Source: Streptomyces sp. SCL15-4
GTDB lineage: Bacteria > Actinomycetota > Actinomycetes > Streptomycetales > Streptomycetaceae
Assembly: GCF_033366695.1 (NCBI RefSeq)
Contig: NZ_JAOBTQ010000001.1
Span: 868,001-932,000, forward strand
DNA length: 64,000 nt
Direction: 5' to 3'
Shown here: in pieces, positions 33,522 through 40,131 of the stretch
Layout: every line of letters starts with the position of its first letter
Position numbering within the stretch: position 1 is the first letter of the stretch
Notes under the pieces: model-generated
Seen by the model: only the letters and a program-made list of their open reading frames with translations
Database searches by the model: none
What the model was told of the DNA's origin: nothing
Position numbers and translations under genes: made by a program

Positions 33522-35102
33522 TCAGGAGGTGGGCAGGGGGCAGCCGACGTCCGTCGCCGGCAGGCGGCCGGTCGCGAGGTAGGCGTTGACCGTGGCGTCG
33601 ACGCACCGGCTGCCGTAGACGCCGTACACCGCGTGCTGGTCGGCGTCGCGCAGGGTGACCAGGCGGGAGCCGGGCCAGTCGCGGCGCACCGCACGGGCGC
33701 CGGGGTAGGTGGTGCGGGGGTCTCCGGTGGCGTTGACGAGCAGGGCCGGCAGGTCGGCGCGGATGGCGGTGGGGCGTTCGCGCGGCGGGCCCCAGAACGC
33801 GCAGGGGTTGATGTTGTCGGTGACCGGAGCGAACAGCCGGTCCTTCTTCCCCGCGTGGCGCAGGTCGCGCCAGTACGTCTCCGGGTCGCGGGGCGCGGGC
33901 ACGTCTCCGCACAGGATGGACGTCTGCGCGCTGCCGTAGCCGGACTCGTGCCCGGTCAGCGTGAACTCCAGCGCCGAGGCCAGCCACGGGGACGGGGTGA
34001 CGGCCCGGCCCTCGGCGGCGCGCCGCAGGTCCCGCACGCCCTCGGCGAAGTCGCCGTAGGCCGTGGGGTTGTCCTGCGAGAGGCCGTTGAAGACGATGAC
34101 GGGCAGGACGTGGTCGTCCAGCCGGTAGTCACCGACGCGCAGGGGCGTGCGCGCGGCGGCCGACCGTACCGCTTCCACGGTCGCCAGCACGGTGGCGCGG
34201 GTGCGACCGAGACCGTAGGCCGTGTGGTGGGCCGCGGTCCAGTCGGCCCAGCCGCGCAGGGCGTGCCGGTTGGCGTTCTCGGTACCGCGCAGCAGCCGGG
34301 GGCCGTAGCGGGCGGGGTCGATCACGCCGTCCAGGACGACCCGGTCGATACGCCCCGGGAACATCGTCGCGTAGACCTGGCCGAGGTAACTGCCGTAGGA
34401 GTAGCCCAGGTAGGAGATCCGGCGCTCGCCCAGCGCGGCCCGGATCACGTCCATGTCGCGCGCGGTGTTCCGGGTGCTGGAGTACGGCAGCAGGTCTCCG
34501 GCGTGGGTGCGGCAGCGGCGGGCCAGGTCGGCGGCGAAGCCGGCTTCGCGCTCGAAGCCGGCGCGGTCGGTGCCGGCGCCGCGGATCATGCTGCCGGTGG
34601 GCCAGTGGCAGTCCAGCGGGGTGCTGCGGCCGACGAAGCGGGGGTCGACGCCCACCACGTCGTAGCGCGCGGCCACCTGACGCATCGCGCGGCGTACGAA
34701 GGGCGGGTCGCCGAGGGTCTGGCCGCCGGGGCCGCCGCTGTTGAGCAGCAGGGCGCCGACGCGGTGCGCGGTGTCGGTGCCACGGATGCGGGAGATGGCG
34801 ACGGTGAGGGTGCGGCCGTCGGGGCGGGCGTAGTCCAACGGGACGGTGACGTCGGCGCATTGGGCGCCGGCCTGTTCGAGTTCCTTGCCGATGGTGTCGT
34901 CCGGGCCGAGCAGGCAGCTCTTCCAGTGCAGCTGCTGGTGGTGGTAGCGGGCGAGGGGGTCGGCGGCGGGACGGGCGGGGGCGGCCGGGGCCGGGGCCGC
35001 GCCCAGGGACAGCGCGCCCGCCAGGGCCAGGGCGACGGCGGACGCGGCCCGGGCGGCGCGGTGGCGCGGGCGGTGACGGCCCGGGGAGGTGGTGCCGGTC
35101 AT
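33522..35102 (-). CDS. Secreted S33-family alpha/beta hydrolase (tripeptidyl aminopeptidase type)
   Basis: A 526-aa exported protein. Residues 1-45 are a basic and hydrophobic signal peptide ending in ALSLGAAPAPA. The hydrolase fold follows with NSGGPGG (oxyanion), GYSYGSYLGQVYA (nucleophile), then NATGDPRT and RDADQHAVYG (acid and histidine). This is the SlpD/SlpE tripeptidyl-aminopeptidase or proteinase group of Streptomyces. It overlaps the stop of the upstream serine hydrolase by four bases, so the two are translated together. Confidence 0.93.
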   Translation of the reverse strand: MTGTTSPGRHRPRHRAARAASAVALALAGALSLGAAPAPAAPARPAADPLARYHHQQLHWKSCLLGPDDTIGKELEQAGAQCADVTVPLDYARPDGRTLTVAISRIRGTDTAHRVGALLLNSGGPGGQTLGDPPFVRRAMRQVAARYDVVGVDPRFVGRSTPLDCHWPTGSMIRGAGTDRAGFEREAGFAADLARRCRTHAGDLLPYSSTRNTARDMDVIRAALGERRISYLGYSYGSYLGQVYATMFPGRIDRVVLDGVIDPARYGPRLLRGTENANRHALRGWADWTAAHHTAYGLGRTRATVLATVEAVRSAAARTPLRVGDYRLDDHVLPVIVFNGLSQDNPTAYGDFAEGVRDLRRAAEGRAVTPSPWLASALEFTLTGHESGYGSAQTSILCGDVPAPRDPETYWRDLRHAGKKDRLFAPVTDNINPCAFWGPPRERPTAIRADLPALLVNATGDPRTTYPGARAVRRDWPGSRLVTLRDADQHAVYGVYGSRCVDATVNAYLATGRLPATDVGCPLPTS

Positions 35103-36304
35103 GCCGGGGTCCTTTCGGTGGGCGTGCCCTCGCAGAGGGCCTTGTCGACGATGTCGAGGAAGTCCAGTTCGGCCTGGAGCGTGGCGGGTACCTCGTTCAG
35201 GGCGACGGCGACGGTGCGGCCGCCGGGGCCGGTGGCGACCAGGGCCCGGTGGCCGCCGGGCACGGTGCCGGCGTGGCCCCACCAGGTGGAGCCGCAGGAC
35301 AGCGGGGAGGAGATCAGGCCGAGCCCGTAGCGGGCGCCGGGCCACAGCCGGTCCGGATCGGCGTCCACGGTCCGCCGCATCTCGGCGAGTTGGGGCGCGG
35401 GCAGCAGTCGGCCGGTGAAGAGCGCGCTGGCGAACCGGGTCAGGTCGGCCGGGGTGGACACCAGGGCGCCACCGATACCGCCGAAGGTCGTGTTCCAGGC
35501 GGTGCCGTCCACGCGGCGGCCGTCGGCCGCGGTGAAGTAGCTGTGCGAGTGGGGGCCTTGGATGCGGGTGTCGTCGCCGGGCCAGTACGTGTCGCGCAGG
35601 CCCAGCGGCGCGATGATCCGGCGGGTGATCTCCGCCTCCGGGCTGTGCCCGGTGACCTCGCGGATGATCAGCCCGGCGACGAGGTAGTTGGTGGTCGCGT
35701 AGTGCCAGGTCCGGTCCGGGGGTGGCAGCCGCAGGGCGCGGGCGATCAGTTCGCGCGGCTCGAAGTGGCGGTAGCGCACCCGCTCGGGGTGCTGCCACTC
35801 GGGCGCGTCGAGGTAGTCGGGCAGCCCGCTGGTGTGCCGCAGCAGCTGCCGTACGGTGATCCGGCGGCCGTCGTAGCCGCCGTCGCGGATCAGGCCGGGC
35901 AGATAGCGCTCGACGGGCGAGTCCAGGGAAAGCCGTCCCTCGGCGGCGAGTCGCAGCACGACGGTCGCGGTGAAGGTCTTGGTGACGCTGCCGGCGCGGA
36001 GCCGGTCGGTGGTGTTCATGGGGCGGCCGGTGCGCAGGTCCGCCGTGCCGTCGGTCACCGTCCAGCGGGCGCAGGGCGCGGCCGGGCCGGGGTCGCCGAC
36101 CAGGACGGCGGCGCCGGCGATCCGGTCGTGCGTCACCAGGTGGCGCACGGCCCGGCTCAGCTCCGGGTGCGGGCCGCAGGCGCGGGGCGCGTCGCGGGCC
36201 GGGTGCGCGACGGCGGCGGGAGCGGCGGCCAGCAGACAGGTCACGGCCAGGGCCACCAGGCCGGCGCGCCGGCGAACCACCCGGCGCGGTAAGGAAATCG
36301 TCAT
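35099..36304 (-). CDS. Secreted serine hydrolase, beta-lactamase / DD-carboxypeptidase fold
   Basis: A 401-aa exported protein with a signal peptide ending in AAAPAAVAHPA. The active-site motif is SVTK (in RAGSVTKTFTA) and the third motif is GHAGTVPG. The YxN motif of class C and DD-peptidases (usually YSN) reads YAT in WHYATTNY, so the third residue is not Asn. Activity is uncertain. It is the first gene of a two-gene operon with the S33 hydrolase. The ATG at 36304 has no clear ribosome site; a TAGCGT box about 15 bases upstream makes a very short leader possible. Confidence 0.9.
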   Translation of the reverse strand: MTISLPRRVVRRRAGLVALAVTCLLAAAPAAVAHPARDAPRACGPHPELSRAVRHLVTHDRIAGAAVLVGDPGPAAPCARWTVTDGTADLRTGRPMNTTDRLRAGSVTKTFTATVVLRLAAEGRLSLDSPVERYLPGLIRDGGYDGRRITVRQLLRHTSGLPDYLDAPEWQHPERVRYRHFEPRELIARALRLPPPDRTWHYATTNYLVAGLIIREVTGHSPEAEITRRIIAPLGLRDTYWPGDDTRIQGPHSHSYFTAADGRRVDGTAWNTTFGGIGGALVSTPADLTRFASALFTGRLLPAPQLAEMRRTVDADPDRLWPGARYGLGLISSPLSCGSTWWGHAGTVPGGHRALVATGPGGRTVAVALNEVPATLQAELDFLDIVDKALCEGTPTERTPA

Positions 36305-36475: not shown

Positions 36476-37372
36476 GTGACCGTTGTCCCGCCTTCCGAGG
36501 CGGGCGGCTGGCAGTCTGCGGGGGACGATCCGGCCCGCGGTCCGACGGGCCGGGCAGCGGCGCGGGCCCGCCCGGCGCCGCCGGGGGCAGGAGTGACGGT
36601 GGAGGAAGTCGCGGGCGGTGCCGCCTCCGGCCCGGTTCCGGAGCGGGCGCGCCGGGGAGTGCCTCGGCACGTGGCCTGCGTGATGGACGGCAACGGGCGC
36701 TGGGCCGCCCGGCGTTCGCTGCCGCGTACCTCCGGGCACCGCGCGGCCGAGACGACGGTGATCGACGTCATCGAGGCGGCCCGCTCGGCCGGGGTGGAGT
36801 GGCTGAGCCTGTACGCGTTCTCCACGGAGAACTGGCAACGGCCCGGCACCGAGGTCGACTTCCTGATGCGGCTGGTCCGCCGGGTGGTGCGCAAGCACGC
36901 CCCGCTGCTGCACGCGCGCGGGATCCGCTGCCGGTTCCTCGGTGTGTCGGATCCGCGCATCCCCGCGCCGCTGGCCCGGGACTTCGCCGATCTGACGACC
37001 CTGACCGACGGGAACCGGGGCATGACGCTGACCGTGGCGTTCGATCACGGCGGGCGGCGGGACATCGTGGCGGCGGCACGGTCGCTGATCCGCAGCGGAG
37101 TGCCGGCCGAGGCCGTGGACGAGCGGTGCTTCGCCGCCCACCTGCCCTTCCCGGACACGCCCGATGTGGACCTCGTCATCCGGACCTCCGGCGAGCAGCG
37201 CATCTCCAACTTCATGCTCTGGCAGGTCGCCTACGCGGAATGGATCTTCCCGCCGGTCCTGTGGCCCGACTTCCGCGCACCGCACTTCCTGGAGTGTCTG
37301 CACACCTATCAGCAGCGCGATCGCCGCTTCGGCGGCGTACGGCCGAACGCGAACGGAGAACGACGACCGTGA
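36476..37372 (+). CDS. Cis-prenyltransferase (UppS/isoprenyl transferase family)
   Basis: A 298-aa protein with the complete UPP-synthase signatures: VMDGNGRWA with catalytic D71, SLYAFSTENWQRP, and RTSGEQRISNFMLWQVAYAEW. It extends an allylic diphosphate with isopentenyl units in the Z configuration. The N-terminus is uncertain: GTG at 36476 gives a 60-residue Pro/Ala-rich leader, whereas GTG at 36593 gives a normal leader. Its last four bases overlap the next gene (GTGA), so the two proteins are coupled. It is a second-type enzyme dedicated to this operon rather than the housekeeping UppS, by context. Confidence 0.9.
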   Translation: MTVVPPSEAGGWQSAGDDPARGPTGRAAARARPAPPGAGVTVEEVAGGAASGPVPERARRGVPRHVACVMDGNGRWAARRSLPRTSGHRAAETTVIDVIEAARSAGVEWLSLYAFSTENWQRPGTEVDFLMRLVRRVVRKHAPLLHARGIRCRFLGVSDPRIPAPLARDFADLTTLTDGNRGMTLTVAFDHGGRRDIVAAARSLIRSGVPAEAVDERCFAAHLPFPDTPDVDLVIRTSGEQRISNFMLWQVAYAEWIFPPVLWPDFRAPHFLECLHTYQQRDRRFGGVRPNANGERRP

Positions 37373-38829
37373 CCGAGACGGGCGCCGACGAGCCCCAGCC
37401 CACCACCGGCGCCGACCGGCCCTTCGGCCTGGGCAGCCGGTTCCGCGGCTTCTTCAACGATCCGCGCTGGGCGCTGGCCATCATCCGGGCGACCGTGCTG
37501 GAGGCCGCGCACCCGCAGATCGGCGCCGCCCTGGCCGACAACTCGACATTCGTGACCCACCCGTGGCGGCGGCTGCGCAACACGGTCACGAGCCTGCGGC
37601 GCATGTCCGGCGACGACGAGGAGGTACGGCGCAAGGAGGCGGCGCGGCTCAACCGGATGCACGCCCGGCTGAGCGGCACCGACGCGCACGGCCGGCCCTA
37701 CGACGCGATGGACCCGGCGGTGCGCGCCTGGGTGGTGGCGACCCTCTTCGAGAGCAGCGTCACCATGTGCCGGTTCAGCGGGCAGCCGCTGGAGCAGGAG
37801 GCCATCGAGGAGCTGTACGGCGAGTTCCGGGGCTATCTGGCCACCCTGGACGGCGATGCCCGGCATCTTCCGCCCACGGTCCACGAGTTCTGGCCGTACT
37901 ACGAACGGGTGGTGGAGGAGGAGGTGGAGCACACGGAGGCGATGCGCATCATCCTCTACCGGCTCTTCGACCATCTGCCCGCGCCGCCGCTGCTGCACGG
38001 TCTGCCCACGGTGTGGGCGGCCGGCCGGGCGCTCGTCGGGCCGCTCATCGGCGTGGTCACGGTGGCGTCCCTGCCGGAGCCGTTCCGCCGGCGGGCGGGC
38101 CTGCCCGAGCTGCCCGGCGCCCAGACGCTGATGCAGAGCGCCTATCTGGGCGCCGGCCTCGCCCGGTTCCTCCCGGAGGGACTGCTGCGCACCGAGTCGG
38201 TGCTGGACCTGCTCGCCCTCTCCCCCGACAGCGACGACCCCCGGGCCCGGACGCTGCGGGCGCTGCGGGACCGGATGCGGCGGGCCGGGGCCCTGGTCCG
38301 GCTGATCACACCGCTGCCGCCGGAGCCTGAGCCGGGCGCGGACACCGGTCTCCGGCGCGGCGCGGAGGAGTTCTTCGCCACGGTGCTGGACCAGACCGGG
38401 GACGGCTATGTGGACTGGCCCGACCTCGCGGCGATGGCCCGGGAGATCGCCGGCCGTCTCGACCTGGACGAACCGGCGGAGACCCGGCTCTACGACGCGT
38501 TCGCCGACTGGTGGCGGGAGCTGCAGACGGCTCTCGACACCGACGGCGACGGCCGGGTCAGCCGCCGGGAGTACGCCGAGGCCGTGCCGTCGCTCGCCGG
38601 TCCCGCCCTGATCAGGGTCGCCGAGGTCCTCTTCGACGTCACCGACGCCGACGGCGACCAGCGCATCGACGCGCAGGAGTACCGGGCGCTGTTCCGCCGG
38701 GGCTTCCACCGCGATCCGGCCGACACCGGCGGCAGCTATGCGCGCGGGGCGTTCGTCCGGGACTTCCTGTCCTTCATGTCGGGCCGTGCCCGCTCGACGC
38801 CGTACGACCCGCTGCTCGCCGAGGCCTGA
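37369..38829 (+). CDS. MpaB/DUF2236-like protein fused to EF-hand calcium sites
   Basis: A 486-aa fusion. Residues 30-330 follow the DUF2236 (MpaB/rubber-oxygenase) layout: HPQIGAALADNS, then RLRNTVTSLRRMSG, RMHARLSG, and ATLFESSV. In the typical family the W-V-H-A-T-L histidine is a likely haem ligand; here the segment is WVVATL (121-126), so that His is missing. The C-terminus has three EF-hand loops: 341-352 (degenerate), 390-401 (canonical DTDGDGRVSRRE) and 426-437 (DADGDQRIDAQE). It starts inside the stop codon of the cis-prenyltransferase, so a linear polyprenyl compound is the probable substrate. Chain cleavage or cyclisation are both possible. Confidence 0.85.
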   Translation: MTETGADEPQPTTGADRPFGLGSRFRGFFNDPRWALAIIRATVLEAAHPQIGAALADNSTFVTHPWRRLRNTVTSLRRMSGDDEEVRRKEAARLNRMHARLSGTDAHGRPYDAMDPAVRAWVVATLFESSVTMCRFSGQPLEQEAIEELYGEFRGYLATLDGDARHLPPTVHEFWPYYERVVEEEVEHTEAMRIILYRLFDHLPAPPLLHGLPTVWAAGRALVGPLIGVVTVASLPEPFRRRAGLPELPGAQTLMQSAYLGAGLARFLPEGLLRTESVLDLLALSPDSDDPRARTLRALRDRMRRAGALVRLITPLPPEPEPGADTGLRRGAEEFFATVLDQTGDGYVDWPDLAAMAREIAGRLDLDEPAETRLYDAFADWWRELQTALDTDGDGRVSRREYAEAVPSLAGPALIRVAEVLFDVTDADGDQRIDAQEYRALFRRGFHRDPADTGGSYARGAFVRDFLSFMSGRARSTPYDPLLAEA

Positions 38830-38905: not shown

Positions 38906-39778
38906 TCAGCCGAGGCCGAGGACGCTCAGGGTGCGGTCGGCCATGCGCCGCTCGCCGAGGGCGTTGGGGTGGACCGGGACGATGTTCTGCCCGAACAACA
39001 GCGGCTCGATCCAGCGGGTCCCGGCCGGCTGGCAGGCGTCGTGCCCGGCGGAGGCCTCGGCGAAGTCCACGTAGGTGGCTCCGGACTCCTCGGCGGCGCG
39101 CTGGACCACGGTGTTGAGGTGGGCCTGGAGGGAGTGCAGGTAGGGCACGTCGCCGGCGGCGATGGGCAGCTTGACGAAGCAGGACGGGTCGGCGGTCGCG
39201 GGCGTGATCCACGTGTAGCCGAGCACGGCCACGCGGGCGTTGGGGGCCTTGGCGCGGACGGCGCCGAGCGCGGCCTTCAGCGCCGGGTAGGTCTTGGCGT
39301 CGATCTCGTCGTCGAAGGACGTGCCGTACTTGTCCTTGCACGGGCTGCCCTTGCCGCCGCTGAAGACGCCCGCGGCGCCGCAGGAGGTCACGGCGTTGAT
39401 GAAGGTGCCGTTGTCGTTGCCGCCGATGGTCAGCGTCACCAGGTCGGTGTCCGCGGTGACGGCGTCGGCCTGCGGGGCGACGCCGGGGTACTGGGACTCG
39501 GTGAAGTGCTTGGTCTGGGCGGCGCCGCAGGTGACGTCCGTCAGCCGGGCGCCGGTCCGGGCGGCGACGGCGTGGGGGTAGTTCGCGGTGGACCGGAGAC
39601 AGAGCGGGCTGCCGAGGTCGACGGGCAGCACACCGGACGCGGCGCTGTAGCTGTCCCCGAGGGCGGCGTAGTCCAGGGACGTGCCGGCCTGGGCGGGGAC
39701 CGCGGCGAGTCCCAGGGCCAGGGCACCGAGGGCCGCGGACGTCGCGGTGAGGACACGGCGCATGGATGGCATGAGCAT
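38906..39778 (-). CDS. Secreted SGNH/GDSL hydrolase (lipase/esterase)
   Basis: A 290-aa exported protein, signal peptide 1-32 ending PAQAG. The GDSY motif (ALGDSYSAASG) holds Ser43. GGNDNGTF supplies the Gly/Asn oxyanion residues and HPNALGERRMA the catalytic histidine. Paired cysteines recall the Streptomyces rimosus/coelicolor secreted lipases. The ATG at 39778 has GGGAG six bases upstream. It is convergent with the MpaB-like gene. Confidence 0.95.
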   Translation of the reverse strand: MLMPSMRRVLTATSAALGALALGLAAVPAQAGTSLDYAALGDSYSAASGVLPVDLGSPLCLRSTANYPHAVAARTGARLTDVTCGAAQTKHFTESQYPGVAPQADAVTADTDLVTLTIGGNDNGTFINAVTSCGAAGVFSGGKGSPCKDKYGTSFDDEIDAKTYPALKAALGAVRAKAPNARVAVLGYTWITPATADPSCFVKLPIAAGDVPYLHSLQAHLNTVVQRAAEESGATYVDFAEASAGHDACQPAGTRWIEPLLFGQNIVPVHPNALGERRMADRTLSVLGLG

Positions 39779-40131
39779 GACATTCTCCCTTCCGGGGAGG
39801 GACACGGCACACACTGGGCGGCCGGTGCCGCGGGCGTGCCGGAACGCGGGAACGGGATGGCGCTGTTCCGGCGGAGGGCGTGCGAGGGCGGCGCACGAGG
39901 GCATAGGGATTACCGAAGAGTTCTACCGATAGGTAATGTGAGGCCGCCGCAACCAGAAAGCAACATTGCGGACCGAACTTTTGAAACACGGACCGTCCCG
40001 GTCCGTCGCGCCGCCGCAGCATTCGGTGCCAATCATCCCGTTATGCGAAGATTTTTGGCCGTCGCGTGCGATAACGGCCGGATCGTGGGCACTCGGTGCA
40101 CAGGAGCACCACTACCCGCTGGAGGCACGCC

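Follow-up and report, generated by a model that had tools for sequence, protein, structure and literature searches.

We analyzed a 64,000-nucleotide stretch of the genome of Streptomyces sp. SCL15-4 (contig NZ_JAOBTQ010000001.1, positions 868,001 to 932,000; hereafter the window, whose own numbering is used throughout) and focused on two genes of its forward strand. The first open reading frame (ORF), at 36476-37372, codes for a cis-prenyltransferase and the second, at 37369-38829, for a DUF2236 protein of the MpaB/Lcp (latex-clearing protein) type with a C-terminal EF-hand domain; they overlap by the bases GTGA (37369-37372). The features of this pair are listed below, where residue numbers refer to the second protein and counts out of 106 to a set of loci that counts the window as one member and contains at least three species in duplicate.

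36476..37372, + strand: cis-prenyltransferase gene, 298 amino acids as called, Pfam PF01255; putative alternative start at GTG 36599
37369..37372, + strand: GTGA overlap between the stop of the first gene and the start of the second; equal 4-base overlap in 100/106 loci
37369..38829, + strand: DUF2236 (MpaB/Lcp-type) protein with C-terminal EF-hand domain, 486 amino acids; structure model with a mean predicted local distance difference test (pLDDT) score of 79.0
37453..38133, + strand: MPAB_Lcp_cat domain (Pfam PF09995), residues 29-255
37570..37584, + strand: R68 and T72, equivalents of R164 and T168 of the latex-clearing protein LcpK30; 106/106 each
37660..37662, + strand: H98, predicted proximal haem ligand, equivalent of LcpK30 H198; 106/106 in the pair family, 32/32 in other DUF2236 proteins
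37735..37737, + strand: V123 in WVVATL (residues 121-126), supposed in a first-pass annotation to be the site of a lost haem ligand
38353..38826, + strand: calerythrin-like EF-hand domain, about residues 329-486
38389..38424, + strand: EF loop 1, residues 341-352, last residue Asp; first and last residues kept in 106/106
38536..38571, + strand: EF loop 2, residues 390-401; first and last residues kept in 106/106
38644..38679, + strand: EF loop 3, residues 426-437; first and last residues kept in 106/106

The shared GTGA, the WVVATL segment, the acidic stretches DDEE (residues 82-85) and EEEVE (183-187) and the three EF loops all lie where the first-pass annotation had placed them.

The same arrangement was found in many other genomes. 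A genome contig search gave 203 relatives of the second protein, and in the best 80 of these, which were fetched and are all Streptomyces or Actinacidiphila by title, a prenyltransferase gene lay directly upstream of the DUF2236-EF gene without exception (80/80). The exact 4-base overlap (NTGA) was present in 100 of the 106 loci, with the remaining six between -38 and +20 bases, and this retention is more than chance. Among 394 genomes of the class, 16 encoded the second protein at full length (11 of 40 from the same genus, own genome counted, and 5 of 354 others, all five from one other family), as did 11 of 41 relatives (own genome counted), and the prenyltransferase adjoined it every time (16/16 and 11/11). 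A separate prenyltransferase search recovered the pair clade (at least 68% identity) in the same 16/394 and the same 11/41 genomes, while the next best prenyltransferases among the matches listed reached 52% and 48% identity, respectively. At the cut-offs used, which were chosen after this identity gap had been seen and which leave the partial or distant matches G038, G181 and G409 outside, no genome had one gene of the pair alone (0/394 and 0/41). Fisher tests of this co-occurrence gave p = 8e-29 (394 genomes) and 3e-10 (41 genomes), values that ignore shared ancestry and come from samples that have a few genomes in common. The distances of the two proteins were also correlated (Spearman 0.63), a figure that has no species-tree baseline and was not used as support. 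Because the pair is conserved in all fetched loci and its genes co-occur, a joint pathway, as supposed in the first-pass annotation, is likely. As a separate observation, G409 has, next to an acyl-CoA ligase-like gene, a prenyltransferase that falls into another clade (51%); the DUF2236-EF match of this genome is partial and lies on a different contig (L174, L175).

The first protein was assigned to the Pfam family Prenyltransf with an E value of 6.5e-72 (242.1 bits, curated cut-off 27), and its nearest solved relatives are the bacterial polyprenyl diphosphate synthases 7cpn (E = 1.9e-69), 2vg2 (4.1e-61) and E. coli UppS 1jp3 (1.2e-55). The source genome holds three cis-prenyltransferases, of which the pair member is 46% identical to that at locus L104 and 35% to that at L105. 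The pair prenyltransferases form a separate clade, at most 52% identical to outside prenyltransferases among the matches listed for the 394 genomes, and the residues C68, W109, C152, H191 and C274 distinguish it from both L104 and L105. The catalytic motifs of cis-prenyltransferases (MDGNGRW, GH, STENW, RTSGEQR and the Glu of AYAE) are conserved in 98% or more of the 106 pair-linked sequences. Position 114, which has a role in chain-length control, is Ala in both the pair member and L104 and Leu in L105; given this role, Ala114 suggests a medium- or long-chain product. The called start at 36476 is doubtful. An AGGAG motif stands 5 nucleotides before the in-frame GTG at 36599, starts with an AGGAG-like site occur in 64 of 98 relatives (at varying positions), and translation may begin at this GTG instead. 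The N-terminal stretch of the called protein (36476-36650) is poorly conserved.

The second protein matched the Pfam domain MPAB_Lcp_cat over residues 29-255 (E = 2.7e-47, 162.2 bits, curated cut-off 23), in addition to EF-hands. The first-pass annotation had regarded the histidine usual in the WVxATL segment as the probable haem ligand and concluded that it had been lost here. The change to an aliphatic residue is conserved, with V in 100, I in 4 and L in 2 of the 106 pair-family members. In LcpK30, the proximal haem ligand is His198 (excerpts of PMC5522427 and PMC6311187), and R164, T168 and H198 are given as near-invariant in DUF2236, with 98.8, 99.6 and 100% of 495 Lcp homologues (excerpt of PMC6311187). 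Our alignment matches these to R68, T72 and H98, each found in 106/106 pair-family members; R68 and H98 were again present in all of the 32 other DUF2236 proteins, whose position 72 was Thr in 23 and Ser in 9. Site 123 in these 32 proteins was His in 21, Ala in 10 and Leu in one. Since H98 is invariant in both sets and other DUF2236 proteins also lack the WVxATL histidine, the role of the latter as haem ligand is unsupported and its supposed loss was rejected. The annotation had named a histidine at another structurally equivalent position, with normal haem binding, as a finding that would count against it, and H98 holds such a position in the alignment.

We therefore predict that the haem ligand is retained as H98. 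The spacing from the arginine is 29 to 30 residues to H98 (39/39 rows) and 50 to 56 to site 123; it is 34 in LcpK30 (R164-H198) and 36 from the published numbers of the nitrile rubber oxygenase Nro1 (excerpt of PMC12724181). The equivalence of H98 and H198 rests on the family alignment, this spacing and the fold. Position 57 is acidic in 100/106 pair-family members and by its spacing would correspond to Glu148, the base of LcpK30, whose equivalent in Nro1 is placed by a published alignment (excerpt of PMC12724181).

The first-pass annotation had also offered an alternative in which the second protein is a haem-free, non-oxidative, cyclase-like enzyme. The absence of the WVxATL histidine in 106/106 members agrees with it, but H98 is invariant and the same WVxATL position is Ala in 10 of the 32 other proteins. 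The acidic stretches proposed as its basis varied among the 106 members: within DDEE, D82 was kept in 12, D83 in 104, E84 in 29 and E85 in 22, and within EEEVE, E183 in 67, E184 in 73, E185 in 90 and E187 in 99. No conserved aspartate-rich metal motif of class I terpene cyclases was found among these members, D83 being the sole conserved residue of DDEE. These stretches were rejected as cyclase motifs, and we consider such an enzyme very improbable.

The structure prediction that the annotation had recommended gave models that match t-anethole oxygenase (8s1j) and Lcp, and then globins, and that have the globin-type fold of the first two. By Foldseek alone, 8s1j appeared with just E = 2.6e-3 for the domain, and EF-hand proteins ranked first for the full model. 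The C-terminal part has a four-hand calerythrin-like fold with calcium loops and is well conserved. This conservation, the exact overlap in 100/106 loci and the strict co-occurrence would fit a complex in which the second protein serves mostly as a calcium-responsive subunit that sets the activity, chain length or membrane place of the prenyltransferase, with oxygenase activity minor; eukaryotic cis-prenyltransferases do use accessory subunits. However, invariant R68, T72 and H98 would be needless in a pure scaffold and the prenyltransferase motifs are those of self-sufficient bacterial enzymes, so that we judge this explanation unlikely.

To look for further linked genes, ORFs of at least 100 codons with a GC content at third codon positions above 0.8, taken from the window and seven other loci, were compared with 85 loci. 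No third gene was found outside the span of the pair, the best ORF being common to 15/85 loci, and a larger gene cluster was rejected. Pfam searches of ten flanking genes of five other loci found nothing in common (P450, HMGL-like/DmpG, glycosyl hydrolase 25, histidine kinase, EF-hand protein, peroxidase, sigma factor, GlxA/Kelch, GntR and one unmatched). The pair is patchy in distribution and held together, with no fixed third gene found. This bears on a rival reading, in which the second protein is indeed a haem oxygenase but acts on some other polyprenyl-bearing molecule whose source lies elsewhere, for instance a polyprenylated aromatic compound or a lipid. Fungal MpaB sets a precedent, cleaving a mycophenolic acid intermediate within its farnesyl chain (excerpt of PMC12724181), and genes for prenyl transfer may be unlinked to the pair. 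Nevertheless, none of the tested ORFs outside the pair was shared by more than 15 of the 85 loci, and we regard this explanation as possible but clearly the less probable one. In the window, the pair is flanked by a beta-lactamase-fold gene (35099-36304, - strand) and a GDSL lipase gene (38906-39904, - strand); each is common to just 15/85 loci, for which reason they look like local synteny outside the two-gene unit. At one distant locus (L168:5451-6713, + strand), a cytochrome P450 gene lies directly upstream of the pair, with similar ORFs in 4/85 loci.

Starting from the gene pair, its conservation and co-occurrence, the intact catalytic residues and the fold of the models, we infer haem, O2 chemistry, the chain length, the partner's product as substrate and calcium gating. 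A chain builder that overlaps and co-occurs with a protein keeping the haem-cleavage residues of Lcp points to a self-contained cassette for making and cutting an isoprenoid, i.e., synthesis of a cis-polyprenyl chain followed by haem-dependent cleavage of a C=C bond, to which we assign a probability of about 0.5. The prenyltransferase would add cis isoprene units to an allylic diphosphate, yielding a Z-polyprenyl diphosphate with a medium or long chain. The second protein would act as a globin-fold MpaB/Lcp oxygenase with b-type haem, using O2 to cleave a C=C bond of this chain or of a lipid derived from it into carbonyl-ended isoprenoids. That it is a haem oxygenase of some kind is quite probable; that its substrate is the product of its partner is only slightly favored. 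The fused calerythrin-like domain would bind calcium (no more than about three ions) and most likely gate or position the oxygenase, and the 4-base overlap would keep the two proteins in step. Gating is proposed because opening of the haem channel in LcpK30 is accompanied by a rearrangement of C-terminal helices, and the EF-hand domain sits at that end; we see the chances for and against regulation by calcium as evenly balanced.

Several observations weigh against a make-and-cut function. The sequence offers no link between the oxygenase and its partner's product, and no sequence-level match to Lcp or 8s1j was found in the PDB. The distal Lys167 of LcpK30 (PDB 5o1l, 5o1m) is Asn in the pair protein (N71 in 7/7), which differs in this from a latex-clearing protein proper; the lysine is conserved in 59% of Lcps (excerpt of PMC5522427). 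Finally, no pair-clade prenyltransferase occurs in the two flanks, at least about 5.5 kb each, of a related gene at L167 (L152/L167), which implies that the DUF2236-EF architecture can work without one. This gene (L167:6266-7408, - strand) belongs, with L166:239-1657 (+ strand), to a second DUF2236-EF subfamily of 32 to 34% identity with four EF-hands by eye; the L166 locus (L012/L166) begins at a contig end, with its upstream gene outside the contig. The other DUF2236 loci fetched had no such prenyltransferase neighbor within flanks of about 1.5 kb, and the prenyltransferase link is special to the pair subfamily, as far as sampled. At L017 and L153 (genomes G024 and G111), DUF2236 genes of the group with about 34% identity occur as tandem copies.

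If such a calcium-gated two-gene cassette makes and cuts its own chain, its products in Streptomyces and some other actinomycetes would be undescribed apo-polyprenoids, i.e., carbonyl-ended cis-polyprenyl fragments, a proposal that we make tentatively. This would parallel the formation of apocarotenoids, with a globin-fold haem oxygenase that carries a fused calcium sensor of its own as the cutter. The fragment could act as a signal or be a volatile compound. The known activities of rubber oxygenases and MpaB enzymes are attack on external polymers and the trimming of a fungal metabolite; here, gene overlap and joint occurrence bind an MpaB/Lcp-family protein to a dedicated chain builder, in a large genus of antibiotic producers. 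As only two genes are linked, a laboratory host would allow a direct search for the product, and confirmation would add an isoprenoid metabolite class and a calcium-regulated member of the MpaB/Lcp haem family. Each part is of a known kind. We found no published account of the pair or of the EF-hand fusion in open-access full texts, a search that leaves most subscription papers outside.

Among known systems, LcpK30 differs from the pair protein, which has a fused EF-hand domain and an adjoining prenyltransferase gene. The t-anethole oxygenase of Stenotrophomonas maltophilia (8s1j) is 11 to 12% identical over the aligned part; its solved chain has about 300 residues without an EF-hand part, and its substrate is, by name, a small aryl alkene. 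Nro1 of Gordonia sp. J1A also belongs to the MpaB family, with a proposed haem ligand His104 and a b-type haem spectrum, but has 323 residues, too short for an added EF domain, and acts on an outside polymer (excerpt of PMC12724181). Fungal MpaB of the mycophenolic acid pathway, the namesake of the Pfam domain, cleaves a C=C bond of a prenyl chain (excerpt of PMC12724181); it acts on a meroterpenoid. The EF-hand domain resembles calerythrin (1nya) and the S. coelicolor calcium-binding protein 3akb, from which it differs in that its hand 4 has, by sequence, no calcium loop and in that it is fused to a putative oxygenase domain.
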